Source: Phycisphaerales bacterium
GTDB lineage: Bacteria; Planctomycetota; Phycisphaerae; Phycisphaerales; SM1A02
DNA: 64,000 nucleotides
Assembly (NCBI GenBank): GCA_029260575.1
Contig: JAJDDB010000035.1
Location: forward strand, 62,001 to 126,000
Direction of reading: 5' to 3'
This document shows, piece by piece, positions 50,575 to 58,126 of the stretch. Position numbers and translations under genes: made by a program. Within the stretch, counting starts at the first letter, position 1. Every line of letters starts with the position of its first letter. Under the pieces are notes generated by a model, which was not told the origin of the DNA, searched no databases, and saw only the letters and a list, made by a program, of their open reading frames with translations.

Positions 50575-51480
50575 TTAGATCTGCTCTTCATTGTTTTTCA
50601 TGATCGGCGGCGGTGTTACCGGGTCGCTGGTCACGTGTTGCGCAATCTCCCGGCCGCATTCGGGGCAGGTGTTGCCCTGCAATTCAAAGAGCAGATATCC
50701 GCAAGCACAACGCGGCTCCTCGAATTCGATGAAGATTGTCGCCCGGCAGTTGCTGCATCGACTGTACCCCTGCCCCAGTTTCTGTTCGTGCTGACAGCGA
50801 GGGCAGTTCAGTTGCATGACGATATCACGGCGCAGCCATTCGGATTTGTGCTGCGAGCGGGATGTATTCAATGACAAGATCGGCACCAGGACGGTCCCGA
50901 GGCCGCCGCACAGCGCCACCAGCGCCAGCACTCCGAGCAGAAGAAATCCATCTATGGCAGTGCTGTCGATCAGCTCCTGCATGTATTCTTCGGCTGCGGC
51001 TATGGAGACCGCAAACAGCGTGATGATCCACACCCCTGCGCTGGTCAGACCGCGCAGAATATTCAGCGAAAATGCTTTGCCAGGCAGTTTCCATATCACG
51101 CCGGTGTGGATGATTGCGCCGCCGAGCAGCAACGTGAAGATGATCCACCGAGTCAACTCCTCTTCCTGTTCCCAGGAAAGGACCGACTCATACCAGATGA
51201 ATCCGAGCCAGAGGCCGGAACCGATCACCGTGACAAGAGACGCAATGATCAAGATCGCTTTCCACACGCCGGTGCGCCCTGCCACGGCTGCGCCTGTCCA
51301 CAGCAGAAATTGCAGGCCGATGACAAACATCGAGACCAAGAGTTGATTGCGAGTGCGGTTGTGAGGCGGCTCGAATATCAGCAGATATGCGCCGAACGGA
51401 ACAATCACAGCGATCGACATCAGCAGGCCGACAACGGCGATGCGAAACACCAACGACTTGCGGATCGGCACCGTTGTCAT
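50575..51480 (-). CDS. Membrane protein with two C-terminal zinc ribbons
   Basis: The 301-residue protein has about six membrane segments in the first 220 residues and then two zinc ribbons: CPRCQHEQKLGQGYSRCSNC, and CACGYLLFELQGNTCPECG. The second matches the CxxCxYxLxxxxxxxCPECG ribbon that starts the two larger proteins upstream. The start overlaps the previous stop by four bases (ATGA). It is the last gene of the ilvE-led run and converges on mqnC without any gap. The function is unknown; the ribbon may bind protein or nucleic acid on the cytoplasmic side. Confidence 0.75.
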   Translation of the reverse strand: MTTVPIRKSLVFRIAVVGLLMSIAVIVPFGAYLLIFEPPHNRTRNQLLVSMFVIGLQFLLWTGAAVAGRTGVWKAILIIASLVTVIGSGLWLGFIWYESVLSWEQEEELTRWIIFTLLLGGAIIHTGVIWKLPGKAFSLNILRGLTSAGVWIITLFAVSIAAAEEYMQELIDSTAIDGFLLLGVLALVALCGGLGTVLVPILSLNTSRSQHKSEWLRRDIVMQLNCPRCQHEQKLGQGYSRCSNCRATIFIEFEEPRCACGYLLFELQGNTCPECGREIAQHVTSDPVTPPPIMKNNEEQI

Positions 51481-52208
51481 GATACAAGTACCCGTATACG
51501 CAGACCGCATTGACTGCACCGATCATCACCAGTCTGGCGGTGGTGGCGAAACTGGCATCGAGGACATTGCAGCGACAGCGACAGTTGCGCTTCGTTACTG
51601 ACGACTGGCGGTGTCAGCCACATCGTCAGGAACGTCGTCACTACAAGCCCGCTGACGAGAAACGACATCCCTGTTCCCACTCGATACAGCCAATCCTCAG
51701 CATGGTATTCATTTTGAAATGGCAGCAGCGTCCAGAACGGCAGGACATCGGGCAACATTACAGTGCCGAGGACGACGCACGCAGCAAGTACATACGAACT
51801 GATGACTGTCACACGGCGCAGCACGCACCACCAGGCTGCGCGCGGCTTTGGAAGGGCCAGCAATCCCGTCACTGCCATCAGACCGGCCCAGCTCACACCT
51901 GCCATGATCGGAACGACGAGTGCCTCAGGCGGCTGCACGTGTCGCGGCAGCCATATCAGGAACATGATGACAGTTGCGGTGGCCAGAGCCGCAATGATGC
52001 CGTTCATCATGCGCTTCGGCTGTATGCCGTTGTCGCGCGCGATGGAGCAGGCCATGGCGACGCTCAGTGCAAGTAGCGCTGTAAGCCCCGTGACCATGAA
52101 GAGCTCAGCTTGCCAGAATGATGACATTGTGACCGCTACAGCGCACACAAACACCATGAATATGGCGGCGACAATCAGCGAAATGCGGAGTATGCGACTC
52201 AGCGTCAC
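51477..52208 (-). CDS. Membrane protein with C-terminal zinc ribbon
   Basis: The 243-residue protein has about six membrane segments (for example RISLIVAAIFMVFVCAVAVT, LFMVTGLTALLALSVAMAC, IMFLIWLP) and ends with CPRCQFRHHRQTGDDRCSQC, a single zinc ribbon. It resembles the first five segments of its downstream neighbour in layout and so may be a paralogue. GTG 52208 is supported by AGGAG with seven-base spacing. It sits 22 bases after the larger zinc-ribbon protein. No family recognised. Confidence 0.75.
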   Translation of the reverse strand: MTLSRILRISLIVAAIFMVFVCAVAVTMSSFWQAELFMVTGLTALLALSVAMACSIARDNGIQPKRMMNGIIAALATATVIMFLIWLPRHVQPPEALVVPIMAGVSWAGLMAVTGLLALPKPRAAWWCVLRRVTVISSYVLAACVVLGTVMLPDVLPFWTLLPFQNEYHAEDWLYRVGTGMSFLVSGLVVTTFLTMWLTPPVVSNEAQLSLSLQCPRCQFRHHRQTGDDRCSQCGLRIRVLVS

Positions 52209-52230
52209 CTGTGTACTCCTGCGCCCCCGG

Positions 52231-53706
52231 TCAGCGCACAGCTGGGGTGTCGTGGGTTATGGAATCAAGATCATCCGGCAGCGGCGGCAACCCCGCATCT
52301 GCCCGGTAGTCGTTTTGTATGGCAATTCTGCTTTGCAGTTGATCAGCGTTGAATTGATGCATGAATCCACTTGCGGTCCCTGCGTAGTACACGGTCTGCG
52401 CATAGAAGTCGGTGTCCCTATCCGGATCGTGAATCAACACAACAAGCCACAGATTTGGATTTGCCGTTTCCGGATCGATCCCGTGATAGGTAAACACGAA
52501 ATCGCCGACGCGATGTGCGATAACGTCATCCGGCTGGGCCGCAAGCATGGCGTCGATTACCTTCGACTGTTCGGCCGGCGAAGAAAACGCAAAAGTGTCG
52601 AGATCGACATCGCCAAGCGGAACATCCTCGGTGATCGTGATACTGTCAACTGAGATAAAATCGTCTTCTGAGACGTTGCCATCCTGGTACAACGCAAGCG
52701 CATGACCCGGCAGGTTGCCGTTGTGATCCGTTGCCCAGGTGCGAAGAGCATCAGTCATACGTTGCGTCTCACCCTGCGGTGTGAACTGCTGCGCCTGTAC
52801 GCTGGCTGCAGCCATACCAACACTCATTGCCCAGAAGAAGAACCAGAAATACAAGCCGACGACAAGAACAGTTGAGACAACCGGAAGCACGAGTGTTGCC
52901 AACGTCGCCCGGCCGCCATGCACACGCTGCACCGCTGCGAGCATGATGATCGCGCTGACGATCCACCAGATGCCCGAGACATATTGCAGGCAATACATGC
53001 CAATACACGGCACCGCGACCAGAATGTTCGCGCCTGCTGTATAGCACAGAGCCTGGTAGGTAGAGCCGATCGTGCGACTGCATCCGCCGGTCAATCGAAG
53101 TGTTGCGTGCGTTACCGCGCCCCAGATGCCGATTCCTATCAGGTTTCCCACAGCCAGAACGATCGGCGCGCACAGTGCGGCGATGCCCATGCCTATTGCA
53201 TCCGGGTCGCCGCTTGATGCTGCGAGAATCGCAAAGCCTCCAAACGGAATCGTGAAGCCTGTGAAACTGATCATGACGAATGTGATGAATGCGTACCACC
53301 ACGCATCGCCGGCTGCAGCCTGCGCGGGCATCCCCTGCGCGAGTCGATTGGGGCCGATCATGCCCCGCCATGTTGTGTACCACCAACTCTTGAACCAACC
53401 GGCTGAACGGCGGCGCAGCCACGGCAGCGGATCGACAACTGTGTGCGCTTCAGCAACGCCATGGGCCGGCCGCAACACCATTTCATCCATGTGAATCTGC
53501 TGCTTGCAGGACACACACTGAAACTCGCGCGGATACAGATGTCCCTTCTGCCCGGTCCCGTAGTAAGGTTGCTCGCAGTGCTGGCAGCAGAACCGCACAC
53601 TGTTATGGTGAAATTCAAATTCGCTCGGCTGAAACGTCACACCGCACTCGGGGCAGTTGCGAGTCTTGAGATTCCACAATGGATAGTCGCAATTTCGACA
53701 GCGCAT
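52231..53706 (-). CDS. Zinc-ribbon, YIP1-like membrane protein (paralogue B)
   Basis: The 491-residue protein begins with two or more zinc ribbons: CRNCDYPLWNLKTRNCPECG, then CCQHCEQPYYG and CVSCKQQIHMDE. A membrane region of about five segments follows (about residues 130-310), resembling YIP1-domain proteins (WWYAFITFVMISFTGFTIPF ... NILVAVPCIGMYCLQYVSG). A soluble C-terminal domain has DDVIAHRVGDFVFTYHGIDP and NLWLVVLIHDP. ATG 53706 was used to match the paralogue, which starts MRCRNCDYP. Function unknown. Confidence 0.8.
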   Translation of the reverse strand: MRCRNCDYPLWNLKTRNCPECGVTFQPSEFEFHHNSVRFCCQHCEQPYYGTGQKGHLYPREFQCVSCKQQIHMDEMVLRPAHGVAEAHTVVDPLPWLRRRSAGWFKSWWYTTWRGMIGPNRLAQGMPAQAAAGDAWWYAFITFVMISFTGFTIPFGGFAILAASSGDPDAIGMGIAALCAPIVLAVGNLIGIGIWGAVTHATLRLTGGCSRTIGSTYQALCYTAGANILVAVPCIGMYCLQYVSGIWWIVSAIIMLAAVQRVHGGRATLATLVLPVVSTVLVVGLYFWFFFWAMSVGMAAASVQAQQFTPQGETQRMTDALRTWATDHNGNLPGHALALYQDGNVSEDDFISVDSITITEDVPLGDVDLDTFAFSSPAEQSKVIDAMLAAQPDDVIAHRVGDFVFTYHGIDPETANPNLWLVVLIHDPDRDTDFYAQTVYYAGTASGFMHQFNADQLQSRIAIQNDYRADAGLPPLPDDLDSITHDTPAVR

Positions 53707-53815
53707 CAATGCGTCCTCAGCCGGGTGACAAACGTCACAAGCGCGTTACAGCATACCGTCTGCAGATGAATCTCGAACAATAGCGGTCAGCGATGAAGCG
53801 GCATCGCAACGTGCT

Positions 53816-55312
53816 TCACTCAGCATTTTCCATTGCGGGTACTGTTTGGTTCATTGCGAGATCAAGCAGATTCTCTGGTAGCGGCGGCAGGCTGGCGGCG
53901 TTTCGCCAGCGATTCTGTCGTGCGAGTTCCTCTGCAAACTGCGACGGTTTGATCTGAATGGTCGTTGCATCGCCCTGACAGATCGTGATCCTGCCTGTGG
54001 ATCCTGAATCTGTGTTCATCGGCGGCGGCCAGATGACAAATAGCCAGAGCTTTTGATCTGCGCTGCGTACATCAATGCCGTGGTACGTGAAAATGATGTC
54101 GCCAAAGCGGTGCGCGACCAGTTCGTCTGGCTGAGCAGCGTTCAAGCGATCAACAACTTCGCGCTGCTCGACGGGTGTGAGCAGTGCAAATTGCTCAAGG
54201 GTTTTGTCTTCGATTAGTATCGTTGATTCCGGCGTGACGATGGAAAAGATGTTGACGCCCAGCCCGGCGTCGACGACGAGTTCCAGAGCATGCCTGGGCG
54301 TTCGGCCTGCGTGTTCAGTCGCATAATTCTGGAGCCCGCCAGCAACAATCGGCGCGCGCATCGGCCCGGTCATGTTCAGCTCCATTGCGTTCATCTGTCC
54401 GCTGCTGAACGAAAGACCCATCATCAGAAAACCAAGTACCATCGCGCCGCCGATGGCAACGCCCCAGCTCAGCACCGCACCGGTGATCACAGCAAACGAT
54501 GCTTTGCCACCTGAGCAACGATGTGCAGTCTTGACCATCAGTATCGCACTGACCATCCACCAGATTTTGCCCGCGAGTTGTGTGCAGTCACCGCAGGGAA
54601 TTGCAGATAGCGCGTTAGCTGGGGAACTGTAATAAATGCAGTGGGCAGTGCGGCGCATTGGTTCGCTGGCAGCACCGACGCTTGAAAGCAGGAGATGCGT
54701 CAGCCACATCCACACAACTGGCACGCCGGCTAAGAGAAAGATCGCCAGCGGCAACTGCCACCATGTTTGTTGAAACGCCAATGCCGTCAAACCGCCCATG
54801 CCCTGCACGTTCTGTCCAATGAGCCAGACTGCAACGAGAGCAATCGTCATTGGAATGCCGGTGCCGACAATCTGAAAGATGAGGTTAGTCAGGAACATGA
54901 ACAGCCAGGCGCCGGCTGCGGGTTGATCGCGGGACACGGATCGGATCAGATTGTCCGGCTTGGTCATGGCATAACCGATGGTGTGAAACCATGCCTTGGC
55001 CGTACCGGTGCGGTGCCGATCAAACCATGGCATCCGATCGACCTGCGTTGCAGCGTCGTCGACGCCTACTGCCGGCCGAAGCACCATCTCGTCCATGTCA
55101 ATGTCGCGTTGACAGTTCACACAGGTGAACTGTCGCGGCTCAATGTGGCCGGTGCTGTCGATGCCATAATACACCTGATCGCAGTGCTGGCAGCAGAAGC
55201 GTACGCTGTTGGGCACGAATACGTATTCACTGGGCGCAAAGTCGGTGCCGCATTCCGGGCACTGTCGCGTGCGAATATTCCACAGCGGATAATCACAATT
55301 CCTGCAGCGCAT
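53816..55312 (-). CDS. Zinc-ribbon, YIP1-like membrane protein (paralogue A)
   Basis: The 498-residue protein has the same plan as its downstream paralogue: ribbons CRNCDYPLWNIRTRQCPECG, CCQHCDQVYYGI and CVNCQRDIDMDE, then about five membrane segments, then a soluble C-terminal domain with DELVAHRFGDIIFTYHGIDV and KLWLFVIWPP. The FxYHGID...LWLxV block is shared by both and is not known to me. The gene lies 28 bases after ilvE, so it is likely in the same transcript. The ribbon and membrane region may recruit partners to the membrane, which is inference. Confidence 0.8.
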   Translation of the reverse strand: MRCRNCDYPLWNIRTRQCPECGTDFAPSEYVFVPNSVRFCCQHCDQVYYGIDSTGHIEPRQFTCVNCQRDIDMDEMVLRPAVGVDDAATQVDRMPWFDRHRTGTAKAWFHTIGYAMTKPDNLIRSVSRDQPAAGAWLFMFLTNLIFQIVGTGIPMTIALVAVWLIGQNVQGMGGLTALAFQQTWWQLPLAIFLLAGVPVVWMWLTHLLLSSVGAASEPMRRTAHCIYYSSPANALSAIPCGDCTQLAGKIWWMVSAILMVKTAHRCSGGKASFAVITGAVLSWGVAIGGAMVLGFLMMGLSFSSGQMNAMELNMTGPMRAPIVAGGLQNYATEHAGRTPRHALELVVDAGLGVNIFSIVTPESTILIEDKTLEQFALLTPVEQREVVDRLNAAQPDELVAHRFGDIIFTYHGIDVRSADQKLWLFVIWPPPMNTDSGSTGRITICQGDATTIQIKPSQFAEELARQNRWRNAASLPPLPENLLDLAMNQTVPAMENAE

Positions 55313-55340: not shown

Positions 55341-56216
55341 TTAGTTTTCAGGTGCATTTTCTTGCACGCACGCGCGAAACGTCTCGGTAAGCTGCGCAGT
55401 GATCGGCCCGACGGTTCCGGTGCCGATGGTGTGCTCGTCAATCCGGCTGACGCCGATGACTTCTGCCGCAGTTCCGGTCAGAAAAACTTCGTCTGCGTTC
55501 AGCACGTCATCCAGCGACATAGTCTGCTCGCGCACGGGGAGTTTCACAGCCGGCGCGAGTTCATCGATGACGAACTGACGGGTGATGCCATGCAGAATCC
55601 CTGCAGATGCAGGCGGCGTGATGAGTGCGCCGCTGACGATTGCAAAAATGTTGTCGCCGGTACATTCTGCAACTTCATCGTCGGTATTGAGCATGATTGC
55701 TTCGAGCACGCCGGCATCGATCGCTTCGATCTTTGCAAGAATGTTGTTGAGATAGTTCAGGCTCTTGATAGCCGGGTCCAGACACACCATCGGCACCCTG
55801 CGGCGCTCGGCGACAATCACATGCATGCCGTTGCGGTACAGCTCATCCGGATACAACGAAATGGAATCGGTAATGATGAACGTGCCGGGCGTCGGACATC
55901 GAAACGGGTGCAGCCCCAGCGTACCGGTGCCGCGGGTAAATACGAGGCGAATGTACCCCTCTCGAAGATCGTTGGCTGCGAGCGTTTCACGAATCGCTTC
56001 TTCAATCTGCTTCTTTGAATAGATCGGCTTCAGTCGAATACGCTCAGCTGACGACCACATGCGATCGAGGTGTGACTGGAGTTTGAACACACGGCCGTTG
56101 TACGCGCGGATTCCCTCGAAACAGCCATCACCATAGAGCAAGCCGTGGTCATACACGGATACTTTCGCATCAGCAGTGTCGACAAGCGCTCCGTCGAGCC
56201 AGATTTTTCCCGGCAT
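55341..56216 (-). CDS. ilvE: Branched-chain amino acid aminotransferase
   Basis: IlvE transfers amino groups between glutamate and the keto acids of leucine, isoleucine and valine, using PLP. The 291-residue product has VYDHGLLYGDGCFEGIRAY at the N terminus, the catalytic Lys 151 in DPAIKSLNYLNNILAK, AIMLNTDDEVAECTGDNIF and FLTGTAAEV. Length and motifs are typical of fold-type IV enzymes. GAGGTG lies seven bases before ATG 56216. It precedes four zinc-ribbon membrane protein genes on the same strand. Confidence 0.95.
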   Translation of the reverse strand: MPGKIWLDGALVDTADAKVSVYDHGLLYGDGCFEGIRAYNGRVFKLQSHLDRMWSSAERIRLKPIYSKKQIEEAIRETLAANDLREGYIRLVFTRGTGTLGLHPFRCPTPGTFIITDSISLYPDELYRNGMHVIVAERRRVPMVCLDPAIKSLNYLNNILAKIEAIDAGVLEAIMLNTDDEVAECTGDNIFAIVSGALITPPASAGILHGITRQFVIDELAPAVKLPVREQTMSLDDVLNADEVFLTGTAAEVIGVSRIDEHTIGTGTVGPITAQLTETFRACVQENAPEN

Positions 56217-56281: not shown

Positions 56282-58126
56282 TTAGGTCTGTGTGGCGAGG
56301 ACATACTGCTCGATTGCTTCAGCAACACCCGCCTGATCGTTCGATGCGACCGTCGCATCAGCGAGATGTCGAACCTGCTCGCATGCATTGGCAACCGCCA
56401 CGCCGAACCCTGCCCATTCGATCATGCCCGCATCGTTTACCGCATCACCGATGGCCATGACCTGCGTTCGCTGGGCCCCCACTCGTGCTGCGACGCGCTG
56501 CAGCGCAATACTCTTGTCCGCAAGCGGGTGCAGAATCTGCACGCGCGTCGGCTGCAGGCAATACAGCGCGACCCGGCGCGTCATCCAGTATTGCTGTTTC
56601 AGGACGGGCAGCGCACGTTCAAGCTGCTCCGGTTCGCCATACAAACTCAAGCGCGACACGGGATGCTGCAGATGCGAATCGATCGGTCCGATGTCGTCCG
56701 GCGGGATCGCGATGTTCGATCGCCGCAGCAGCGCATCATCAACACGGTCCGTATACCAGGCATCGAGCACTTCGATGCCGATGTGCAGGGCCGGTTCGAC
56801 GGTACGTGCAAGATTGATGATGTCATGCACAAGCGAACCGTCGAGCGCTTCGTGATATTGCGGCTTGGAAGCGACGGGGTTCCAGATGAGCGCGCCGTGA
56901 AACGCAATGACCGGCGCGGTGATTCTGATTGCGTCGATCACCGGTTGCAAGGCCTGCGGCGGCCGGCCGCTTGCCAATACGACGACGCAACCAGCCTCCT
57001 GAGCCCGCTGACATGCTTGCACAACGCGTTCGTCCAGTGAGAAATCGCTGCGCAGCAGTGCCCCTTCGACATCACAGGCAAGCAGGCGCACCCGCTCGGG
57101 TGGCGCTGCGACCTGAACAAGTGCTGGCGAATGCTGATTCGAGTTCGTTGTGCTGGTTACAGCAGTTGCGCGCACGGCAACAGTTGCGGCGCTGTTTGAG
57201 CCGGTTCCGAGCAGCGATTCAATAGCTGATTCGATCTGGCCGAACACGAATGAGAATTCGTACTCAAGCGCCTTGCGTGGGACAACTCGCTGACTTGCGC
57301 TGATGTATTTTGCGAATTCACCGAGTGCAATGCGCAGCACCGGCTTGGGAACAGCAAACCACCACGGCCGTCCGAGCGTTGCGCCGATTTCCCGAGCGAG
57401 TTCCCAGTTGGTTACGGGATTCGGCGCTGTCATGTTGAGCGGGCCGGTGATACCTGGATTGCTCAATGCCATATGCACCAGTTCCATCCAGTCGCGCCAG
57501 TGAATCCATGCCATCCAGTACCGTCGAAAACCGACCGGCCCACCTGCAAGAAACTTGAATGGCGTCAACATTTTCCGCAGCGCTCCACCTGCCGAATCCA
57601 GAACGACACCAGTGCGCAGCAGTACCACGCGAGTTCCTTCAGATTCCGCAAGTAACGCCTGCTCTTCCCATCGGGCGCAAAGATCAGCGAGAAAATCCGT
57701 GCCGGCTGGATGTGTTTCATCAACAAACTGTTCGCCGGTGTCGCCGTAGTAGCCGACCGCTGAGGCATTCATCAATACTTTGGGGCGCGACTGCGCTTCT
57801 TCAAGTGCATTGACCACCTGATGCGTGCTGTCCATGCGGCTGTTGACGATCGTTTTCTTGTACTGCCTGGTCCAGCGTTTGTCCCCGATACCGGCACCCG
57901 CAAGATTAATGACCGCATCACATCCGCTGACGTGTTGCTGCCACGGCCCGGGGATGGCGGGATTACCCTGGACGACTTCAACGTTGGGATTGACATCGGC
58001 AGCGAACAATGCTGCTGCCTTGTCACGATTGCGCGAGAGCACCACCAGGCGATCACCGCGCGCCAGACGATCGACGACGAGTCGCCTCCCGAGCAGTCCC
58101 GTAGCACCGGTTATGAATATCTTCAT
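56282..58126 (-). CDS. Fusion of TIGR01777-type epimerase and Cof-type HAD hydrolase
   Basis: Residues 1-300 are an NAD(P)-binding epimerase-like protein of the TIGR01777 (YfcH/SulA) group: ITGATGLLGRRLV, INLAGAGIGDKRWT, NASAVGYYGDTGEQFVDE, WIHWRDWMELV. After a linker (about 305-345) comes a Cof-type HAD domain: LLACDVEGALL (Asp 352), VLASGRPPQAL, ADKSIALQRVA and GDAVNDAGMIEWAG. The second acidic residue of the HAD DxD motif is Glu 354, not Asp, which may alter or abolish phosphatase activity. The two activities are usually encoded by separate genes. It lies 65 bases upstream of ilvE on the same strand. Confidence 0.9.
   Translation of the reverse strand: MKIFITGATGLLGRRLVVDRLARGDRLVVLSRNRDKAAALFAADVNPNVEVVQGNPAIPGPWQQHVSGCDAVINLAGAGIGDKRWTRQYKKTIVNSRMDSTHQVVNALEEAQSRPKVLMNASAVGYYGDTGEQFVDETHPAGTDFLADLCARWEEQALLAESEGTRVVLLRTGVVLDSAGGALRKMLTPFKFLAGGPVGFRRYWMAWIHWRDWMELVHMALSNPGITGPLNMTAPNPVTNWELAREIGATLGRPWWFAVPKPVLRIALGEFAKYISASQRVVPRKALEYEFSFVFGQIESAIESLLGTGSNSAATVAVRATAVTSTTNSNQHSPALVQVAAPPERVRLLACDVEGALLRSDFSLDERVVQACQRAQEAGCVVVLASGRPPQALQPVIDAIRITAPVIAFHGALIWNPVASKPQYHEALDGSLVHDIINLARTVEPALHIGIEVLDAWYTDRVDDALLRRSNIAIPPDDIGPIDSHLQHPVSRLSLYGEPEQLERALPVLKQQYWMTRRVALYCLQPTRVQILHPLADKSIALQRVAARVGAQRTQVMAIGDAVNDAGMIEWAGFGVAVANACEQVRHLADATVASNDQAGVAEAIEQYVLATQT

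Follow-up and report, generated by a model that had tools for sequence, protein, structure and literature searches.

An unnamed family of zinc-ribbon membrane proteins in Phycisphaerae with a putative pilin-derived C-terminal block

The window analyzed here, a 64,000-nucleotide stretch of a Phycisphaerales contig, carries on its minus strand a run of four consecutive genes, referred to below as A to D, that is bounded by the branched-chain aminotransferase gene ilvE (55341..56216, minus strand), lying upstream of A, and by a convergent radical SAM gene. Gene A (53816..55312, minus strand) encodes a protein of 498 aa with two N-terminal ribbons, a Yip1-like membrane region, and a C-terminal block that appears to be pilin-like. 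Gene B (52231..53706, minus strand) is a paralogue of identical layout, encoding 491 aa from its ATG, or one residue more from an alternative TTG start at 53709. Gene C (51477..52208, minus strand) encodes a six-helix membrane protein of 243 aa with a single C-terminal ribbon, and gene D (50575..51480, minus strand) encodes a six-helix membrane protein of the same family with two C-terminal ribbons and 301 aa from its ATG, an alternative GTG start being listed at 51519 among the open reading frames. The initial annotation had described four consecutive minus-strand genes with these coordinates and spacings, two of them with C-terminal ribbons, and the open reading frames bear this out.

Spacing within the run is tight. 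The gaps measure 28 bases between ilvE and A, 109 between A and B, and 22 between B and C, while C and D overlap by four bases. With only 28 bases separating ilvE from A, ilvE and the A-D run could form one transcript. A shared transcript for A-D, as originally proposed, is plausible from gene order and spacing, and the order ilvE-A-(A)-C/D recurs elsewhere. Signal scans were of no help in this regard: a promoter scan returned 1 site against a mean of 3.1 in shuffled sequence, i.e., fewer than expected by chance, and a terminator scan returned 9 sites against 6.4. The convergent radical SAM gene belongs to the MqnC/MqnE (CofH-family) group, with MqnC as the top NCBIfam match, just under the cut-off. 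Elsewhere in the window (56282-58126) lies a gene encoding a fusion of a TIGR01777-type oxidoreductase with a Cof-type HAD phosphatase; the product measures ~580-640 aa in several related loci, and an ORF of ~300-325 aa is found there in others.

A and B are 40% identical across almost their whole length (E 1e-105), which confirms the two long paralogues of the initial annotation. In a search of 61 related genomes, including that of the window, matches to A/B were found in 41, a few of them to the ribbon only (e.g., G051), and A/B relatives were seen to occupy the corresponding chromosomal position in other genomes. A profile search of GTDB genomes yielded 72 A/B loci, of which 71 have record titles naming Planctomycetota or its subgroups and one names Leptolyngbya. 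The A gene of this last record (QWIH01000007.1, titled Leptolyngbya sp. PLA1) groups with Phycisphaerales, and the label may be wrong. Scans of proteins A-D against Pfam and NCBIfam gave weak matches only. The A/B family is a real, conserved, and unnamed one. In a quick tree, with 22 of its 59 inner branches open, the A protein of the window does not join the B protein of the window, so the duplication that gave rise to the pair is probably old. Several irregular relatives were also encountered. For example, the A gene of isolate PNC22 (L156:9001-10500) is broken into four ORF pieces and a second A copy in L094 is split, both through either assembly error or decay, and the genome of the window encodes two proteins of 108-114 aa (L191:1608-1934 and L192:4364-4708) that carry this N-terminal ribbon together with membrane helices.

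An alignment of 62 proteins was assembled from A and B of the window and 60 locus proteins of full length (<560 aa), the loci holding 79 ribbon-starting ORFs, 19 of which were excluded as short, broken, fused, or carrying a tandem block. Cysteines 3, 6, 18, 21, 41, 44, 64, and 67 are invariant in all 62, giving each ribbon two paired and conserved CxxC sites, as is expected of a zinc ribbon. Zinc binding by the ribbons of A, B, C, and D is a putative trait, suggested by the cysteine pattern. The claim that the motif CxxCxYxLxxxxxxxCPECG occurs in three of the four proteins proved too generous: the strict form, CxxCxYxLx7CPECG, is found in A and B only (2/4), D has a CxC variant of it, and C carries neither form. 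The YIP1-like membrane region that had been assigned to A and B holds as a trait of the family, 33 of the 62 members matching Pfam Yip1 (PF04893) at E <= 0.01 (best 8.4e-9), but not for the two window proteins individually, since B reaches 19.1 bits where the curated cut-off is 28.6, and A is not matched at all.

An AlphaFold2 model of B, built from 62 sequences, has a mean pLDDT of 93.9 and shows five long membrane-type helices, the last of which spans residues 264-306; beyond it come a helix (310-327) and a five-stranded domain. Five helices, as in Yip1, are seen both in this model and in the loop charge pattern of the 62 proteins, whose mean net charges run +3.6 (before TM1), +0.3, +1.9, 0.0, +2.2, and +0.6 (after TM5). 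In the C/D family (n=22) the corresponding means also alternate: +1.6, -0.8, +2.2, -0.8, +2.6, -2.7, and +1.2. The orientation of membrane helices can be read from such charges by the well-established positive-inside rule. On that basis, A, B, C, and D are all predicted to have their ribbons on the cytosolic side, and A and B to have their C-terminal block on the opposite side. The predicted topology of A and B is, therefore, one of cytosolic ribbons, five Yip1-type helices, and a non-cytosolic C-terminal block, and that of C and D is one of six membrane helices with cytosolic C-terminal ribbons.

C and D look like paralogues too. Searches with either protein recover several ORFs in common, matching over the membrane part, and the match in a direct BLASTP comparison of the two spans the ribbon only. 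Matches were found in 38 of the 61 genomes for D and in 14 for C, and many of those for D involve the ribbon alone. All 22 aligned C/D proteins keep the four cysteines of their first ribbon, C being the family form that lacks the second ribbon. This second ribbon, in D, has a relative in the first ribbon of A/B (hhalign 95.8%). Shared descent of the A/B and C/D membrane parts was also considered, and no relation was seen (hhalign 0.4%). C/D genes also occur away from A, in L074, L079, and L085, the last of these in the genome of the window itself. Specifically, L085:7064-7906 (G000:C3) encodes a further C/D paralogue in an unrelated neighborhood.

The initial annotation had proposed that the four genes belong together, a view against which homologues in other neighborhoods would speak, and the 72 loci divide on this point. 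The order A then C/D recurs in 16 of them (14 with ilvE adjacent as well, two at a contig edge), in favor of the proposal. Against it, A stands without C/D beside another gene, X3, in 30 loci, and C/D stand without A, so that homologues do occur in other neighborhoods in part. X3 encodes a membrane protein of ~210 aa and was recognized in 24 loci by clustering and in 6 more by profile; ilvE is immediately upstream of A in 28 loci, and neither gene is beside A in 14, three of which begin at a contig edge. At no locus (0/72) are ilvE and X3 found together beside A. In 19 loci the run is followed by the convergent radical SAM gene. In a quick tree the type of upstream gene clusters by lineage, requiring 18 changes as compared with 33.1 in shuffles. 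Given that C/D follow A at a minority of loci and are also found elsewhere, the foursome is a lineage-specific association and not an obligate unit. X3 (e.g., L113:8410-8991, and 29 further loci) is a proline-rich small membrane protein; a Pfam scan of one member gave no match, and X3 was rejected as a relative of C/D (hhalign 2.8%, with 14 columns matched).

The scarcity of C/D behind A, their presence apart from it, and the presence of X3 beside A in 30 loci could also mean that A, B, C, and D are mere neighbors beside ilvE, held there by vertical inheritance and having no joint task. We consider this somewhat improbable in view of the tight spacing and overlaps, the recurrent order of A followed by C/D, the ribbon type common to both families, and copy numbers that change jointly. 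For example, five C/D genes stand behind one A in L066 (order A-D-C-D-C-D), and L072 has the order A-A-C-D-D. The number of A genes in a run reaches three (L134).

The strip FTYHGID...LWLxV, noted at the outset as a block common to A and B, is present in both and is the best-conserved part of a domain of ~190 residues. In A, the block occupies 53816..54427 (minus strand, stop codon included), the stretch aligned in alignment A4, which omitted 8 of the 62 rows, for the most part ones whose C-termini diverge furthest. In B, it occupies 52231..52833 (minus strand, stop codon included), the stretch that was folded alone, with a mean pLDDT of 94.3. Scans of 54 block members against Pfam and NCBIfam gave no convincing match over the length of the block. 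No named family of that extent covers it, and the original claim of a new shared block, as opposed to an already named domain, has held. Among the pilin-related families, T2SSG and N_methyl gave no match in the 54 members, and SBP_bac_10 (PF07596) matched 0/54 at E <= 1. Pfam HIND did match 12 of the 54 (best E 1.1e-4); this 25-position motif falls on the tail LRxxxGLPPL (seen in L185), and the match is read as chance or convergence. Residues R108, W129, N174, and R177 (block numbering) are invariant in the 54 members. The conserved residues form no recognized catalytic set, and the block is thus read as a binding or structural domain.

The block is not confined to the A/B layout. Its other anchors are DUF4190 (L182, L186), a ribbon plus one helix (L183), single helices (L184 and L185, judged by eye), and further ribbon/helix combinations (L187-L190). 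Furthermore, the A proteins of L129 (3491-5656) and L130, which measure ~709-721 aa, contain two copies each. The block is, therefore, mobile across anchors and can be duplicated. This bears on the possibility that A and B are Yip1-type membrane organizers, acting in trafficking or curvature, for which the block would be an optional accessory. The Yip1 matches in over half of the family and the short, block-less members that hold the same place by ilvE (e.g., L140, L146, L149) are both consistent with such a role. Nevertheless, A of the window has no Yip1 match and B falls under the cut-off, and the block is kept in the 60 locus proteins used for alignment A2. Its conservation and its presence on other anchors argue that it is not a mere Yip1 accessory, and we regard the organizer role as unlikely.

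What the block derives from is suggested by more distant relatives. A widened block profile matched 29 of 294 genomes of the phylum at E <= 0.01. Of the 30 loci from this search, 7 are the A/B family itself and 23 are remote; among the latter, 18 have pilin or pseudopilin features as judged by eye, 4 lack them, and 1 yielded no ORF. Canonical prepilins with an FTLxE signal are among them (L211, L220, L223, L224, L225), and of nine remote proteins that were scanned, seven have pilin-type Pfam or NCBIfam matches at E <= 0.05 and two match DUF4190 only. The block compares at 97.8% by hhalign with nine pseudopilin-like proteins (0-0.4% in 20 column shuffles, 0.0% when reversed) and at 95.3% (E 2.2e-8) with a bridging protein, L204a, both scores being inflated because the nine proteins and L204 were picked by the block's own profile. 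L204a, in turn, matches NCBIfam GspG (positions 10-120 of 134, E 2.4e-5) and 22 independently collected GspG proteins (90.1%, E 1.6e-6). In the PDB, pilins make up 8 of its 10 hits, the best at E 0.0017, over the helix region only. The order of secondary structure in the B and block models, a long helix and then a sheet, also agrees with that of a pilin.

Other comparisons are less favorable. Set directly against GspG, the block gives weak scores (0.3% and 0.6% with A4; 31.9% and 14.7% with the widened alignment, A5). Foldseek returned no PDB match at E <= 0.001 for either the whole B model or the block model, and pilins were absent among the 50 Foldseek matches listed and among the VIA-align rows. 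For the whole B model, Foldseek and VIA-align gave mainly helical bundles (a V-ATPase subunit at Z 5.3), the best VIA-align score for the block was Z 2.4, and a PDB sequence search with the block profile found no sensible match (best E 0.39). An alternative is that the block is a new domain with no relation to pilins, which resembles pseudopilins only at the helix and the YAxxxxGxxP turn and acts in the periplasm as an ordinary sensor or binding domain; the missing fold match and the weak GspG scores would both follow, most remote hits of the widened profile span helix and turn only, and several are short and chance-like (L206, L207, L208, L218). What argues against this is the bridge: L204a and L204b align with the first half of the block (positions 4-61 or 5-45) as well as the second (98-174) and have its C-terminal tail pattern, and L204a covers almost the full GspG profile. 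On balance, an unrelated domain seems rather unlikely to us, and ancestry of the block as a divergent member of the pilin/pseudopilin superfamily is supported but remote.

Even with a pilin ancestry of the block, A and B would not be typical pilins. None of the 62 A/B rows has a prepilin-like motif at the start of a membrane helix, the one row with such a motif having it at residue 457. From established pilin biology, a head that lacks the prepilin signal and is held on a polytopic anchor should not be extractable into a filament as pilin subunits normally are. A simple pattern test detected prepilin-like ORFs near A in 2 of 72 loci and none in the window, so that the neighborhood lends no support to a role in a pilus or in type II secretion.

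The explanation that we prefer, and to which we would give roughly an even chance as a whole statement, is that A and B are membrane proteins with a fixed, pilin-derived docking head, not filament subunits, and that C and D are their partners. Specifically, A and B would belong to the inner membrane, as members of a family seen in Phycisphaerae, and their pilin-like head would sit on TM5 roughly as a pilin head sits on its own N-terminal helix. C and D would be six-helix membrane partners with their ribbons toward the cytosol. Together they may form a static complex in the envelope, with the head docking a partner that is periplasmic or of pilus type, and the cytosolic ribbons may serve as the protein-protein side, holding C/D or a cytosolic factor. 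The architecture of A and B is far surer than this role: genes, family, conserved cysteines, predicted topology, neighborhoods, and domain mobility all come from computation on the sequences, and from them we infer complex formation and docking. It is tempting to go further and suggest that, in Phycisphaerae, a pilin head from the filament machinery has been fixed on a Yip1-type zinc-ribbon scaffold and that, with C/D, it makes up an envelope complex that forms no filament but docks exported or pilus-type proteins and signals their state to the cytosol, a proposal that we think unlikely.

If the preferred explanation is right, a pilin-type domain has found a second use as a fixed module, on polytopic anchors and others, in a phylum whose pilin-type proteins, according to PMC8567305, are known to be expanded and of unclear use. 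In addition, an unnamed Phycisphaerae family would gain a fold, a topology, and a testable pair of partners. Within the limited collection of literature searched, no description of the A/B architecture was found; PMC11237479 mentions ribbons and Yip1-like HAAS domains for systems other than A/B.

Several known systems resemble parts of A and B. In GspG and the type IV pilins, as in the model of the block, a helix leaves the membrane and is followed by a YAxxxxGxxP-type turn and an antiparallel sheet, and a remote sequence link runs through L204; in contrast to these proteins, the block sits on the fifth helix of a polytopic protein that lacks an N-terminal prepilin signal. The SBP_bac_10 (DUF1559) pilin-type proteins are expanded in the same phylum as A/B, and those with the prepilin motif heavily so in Planctomycetales, as reported in PMC8567305; by the same paper, the prepilin motif is mostly present in them, whereas it is absent in A/B. 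The DUF4190 proteins with a pseudopilin-like end (L182, L186, L215, L219) place the same or a similar block behind a small anchor, this being the two-helix DUF4190 region in place of the ribbons and Yip1 region of A/B. Finally, Pfam Yip1 (PF04893) proteins share with A/B a five-helix membrane region, to which A and B apparently add cytosolic ribbons on one side and a pilin-like head on the other.
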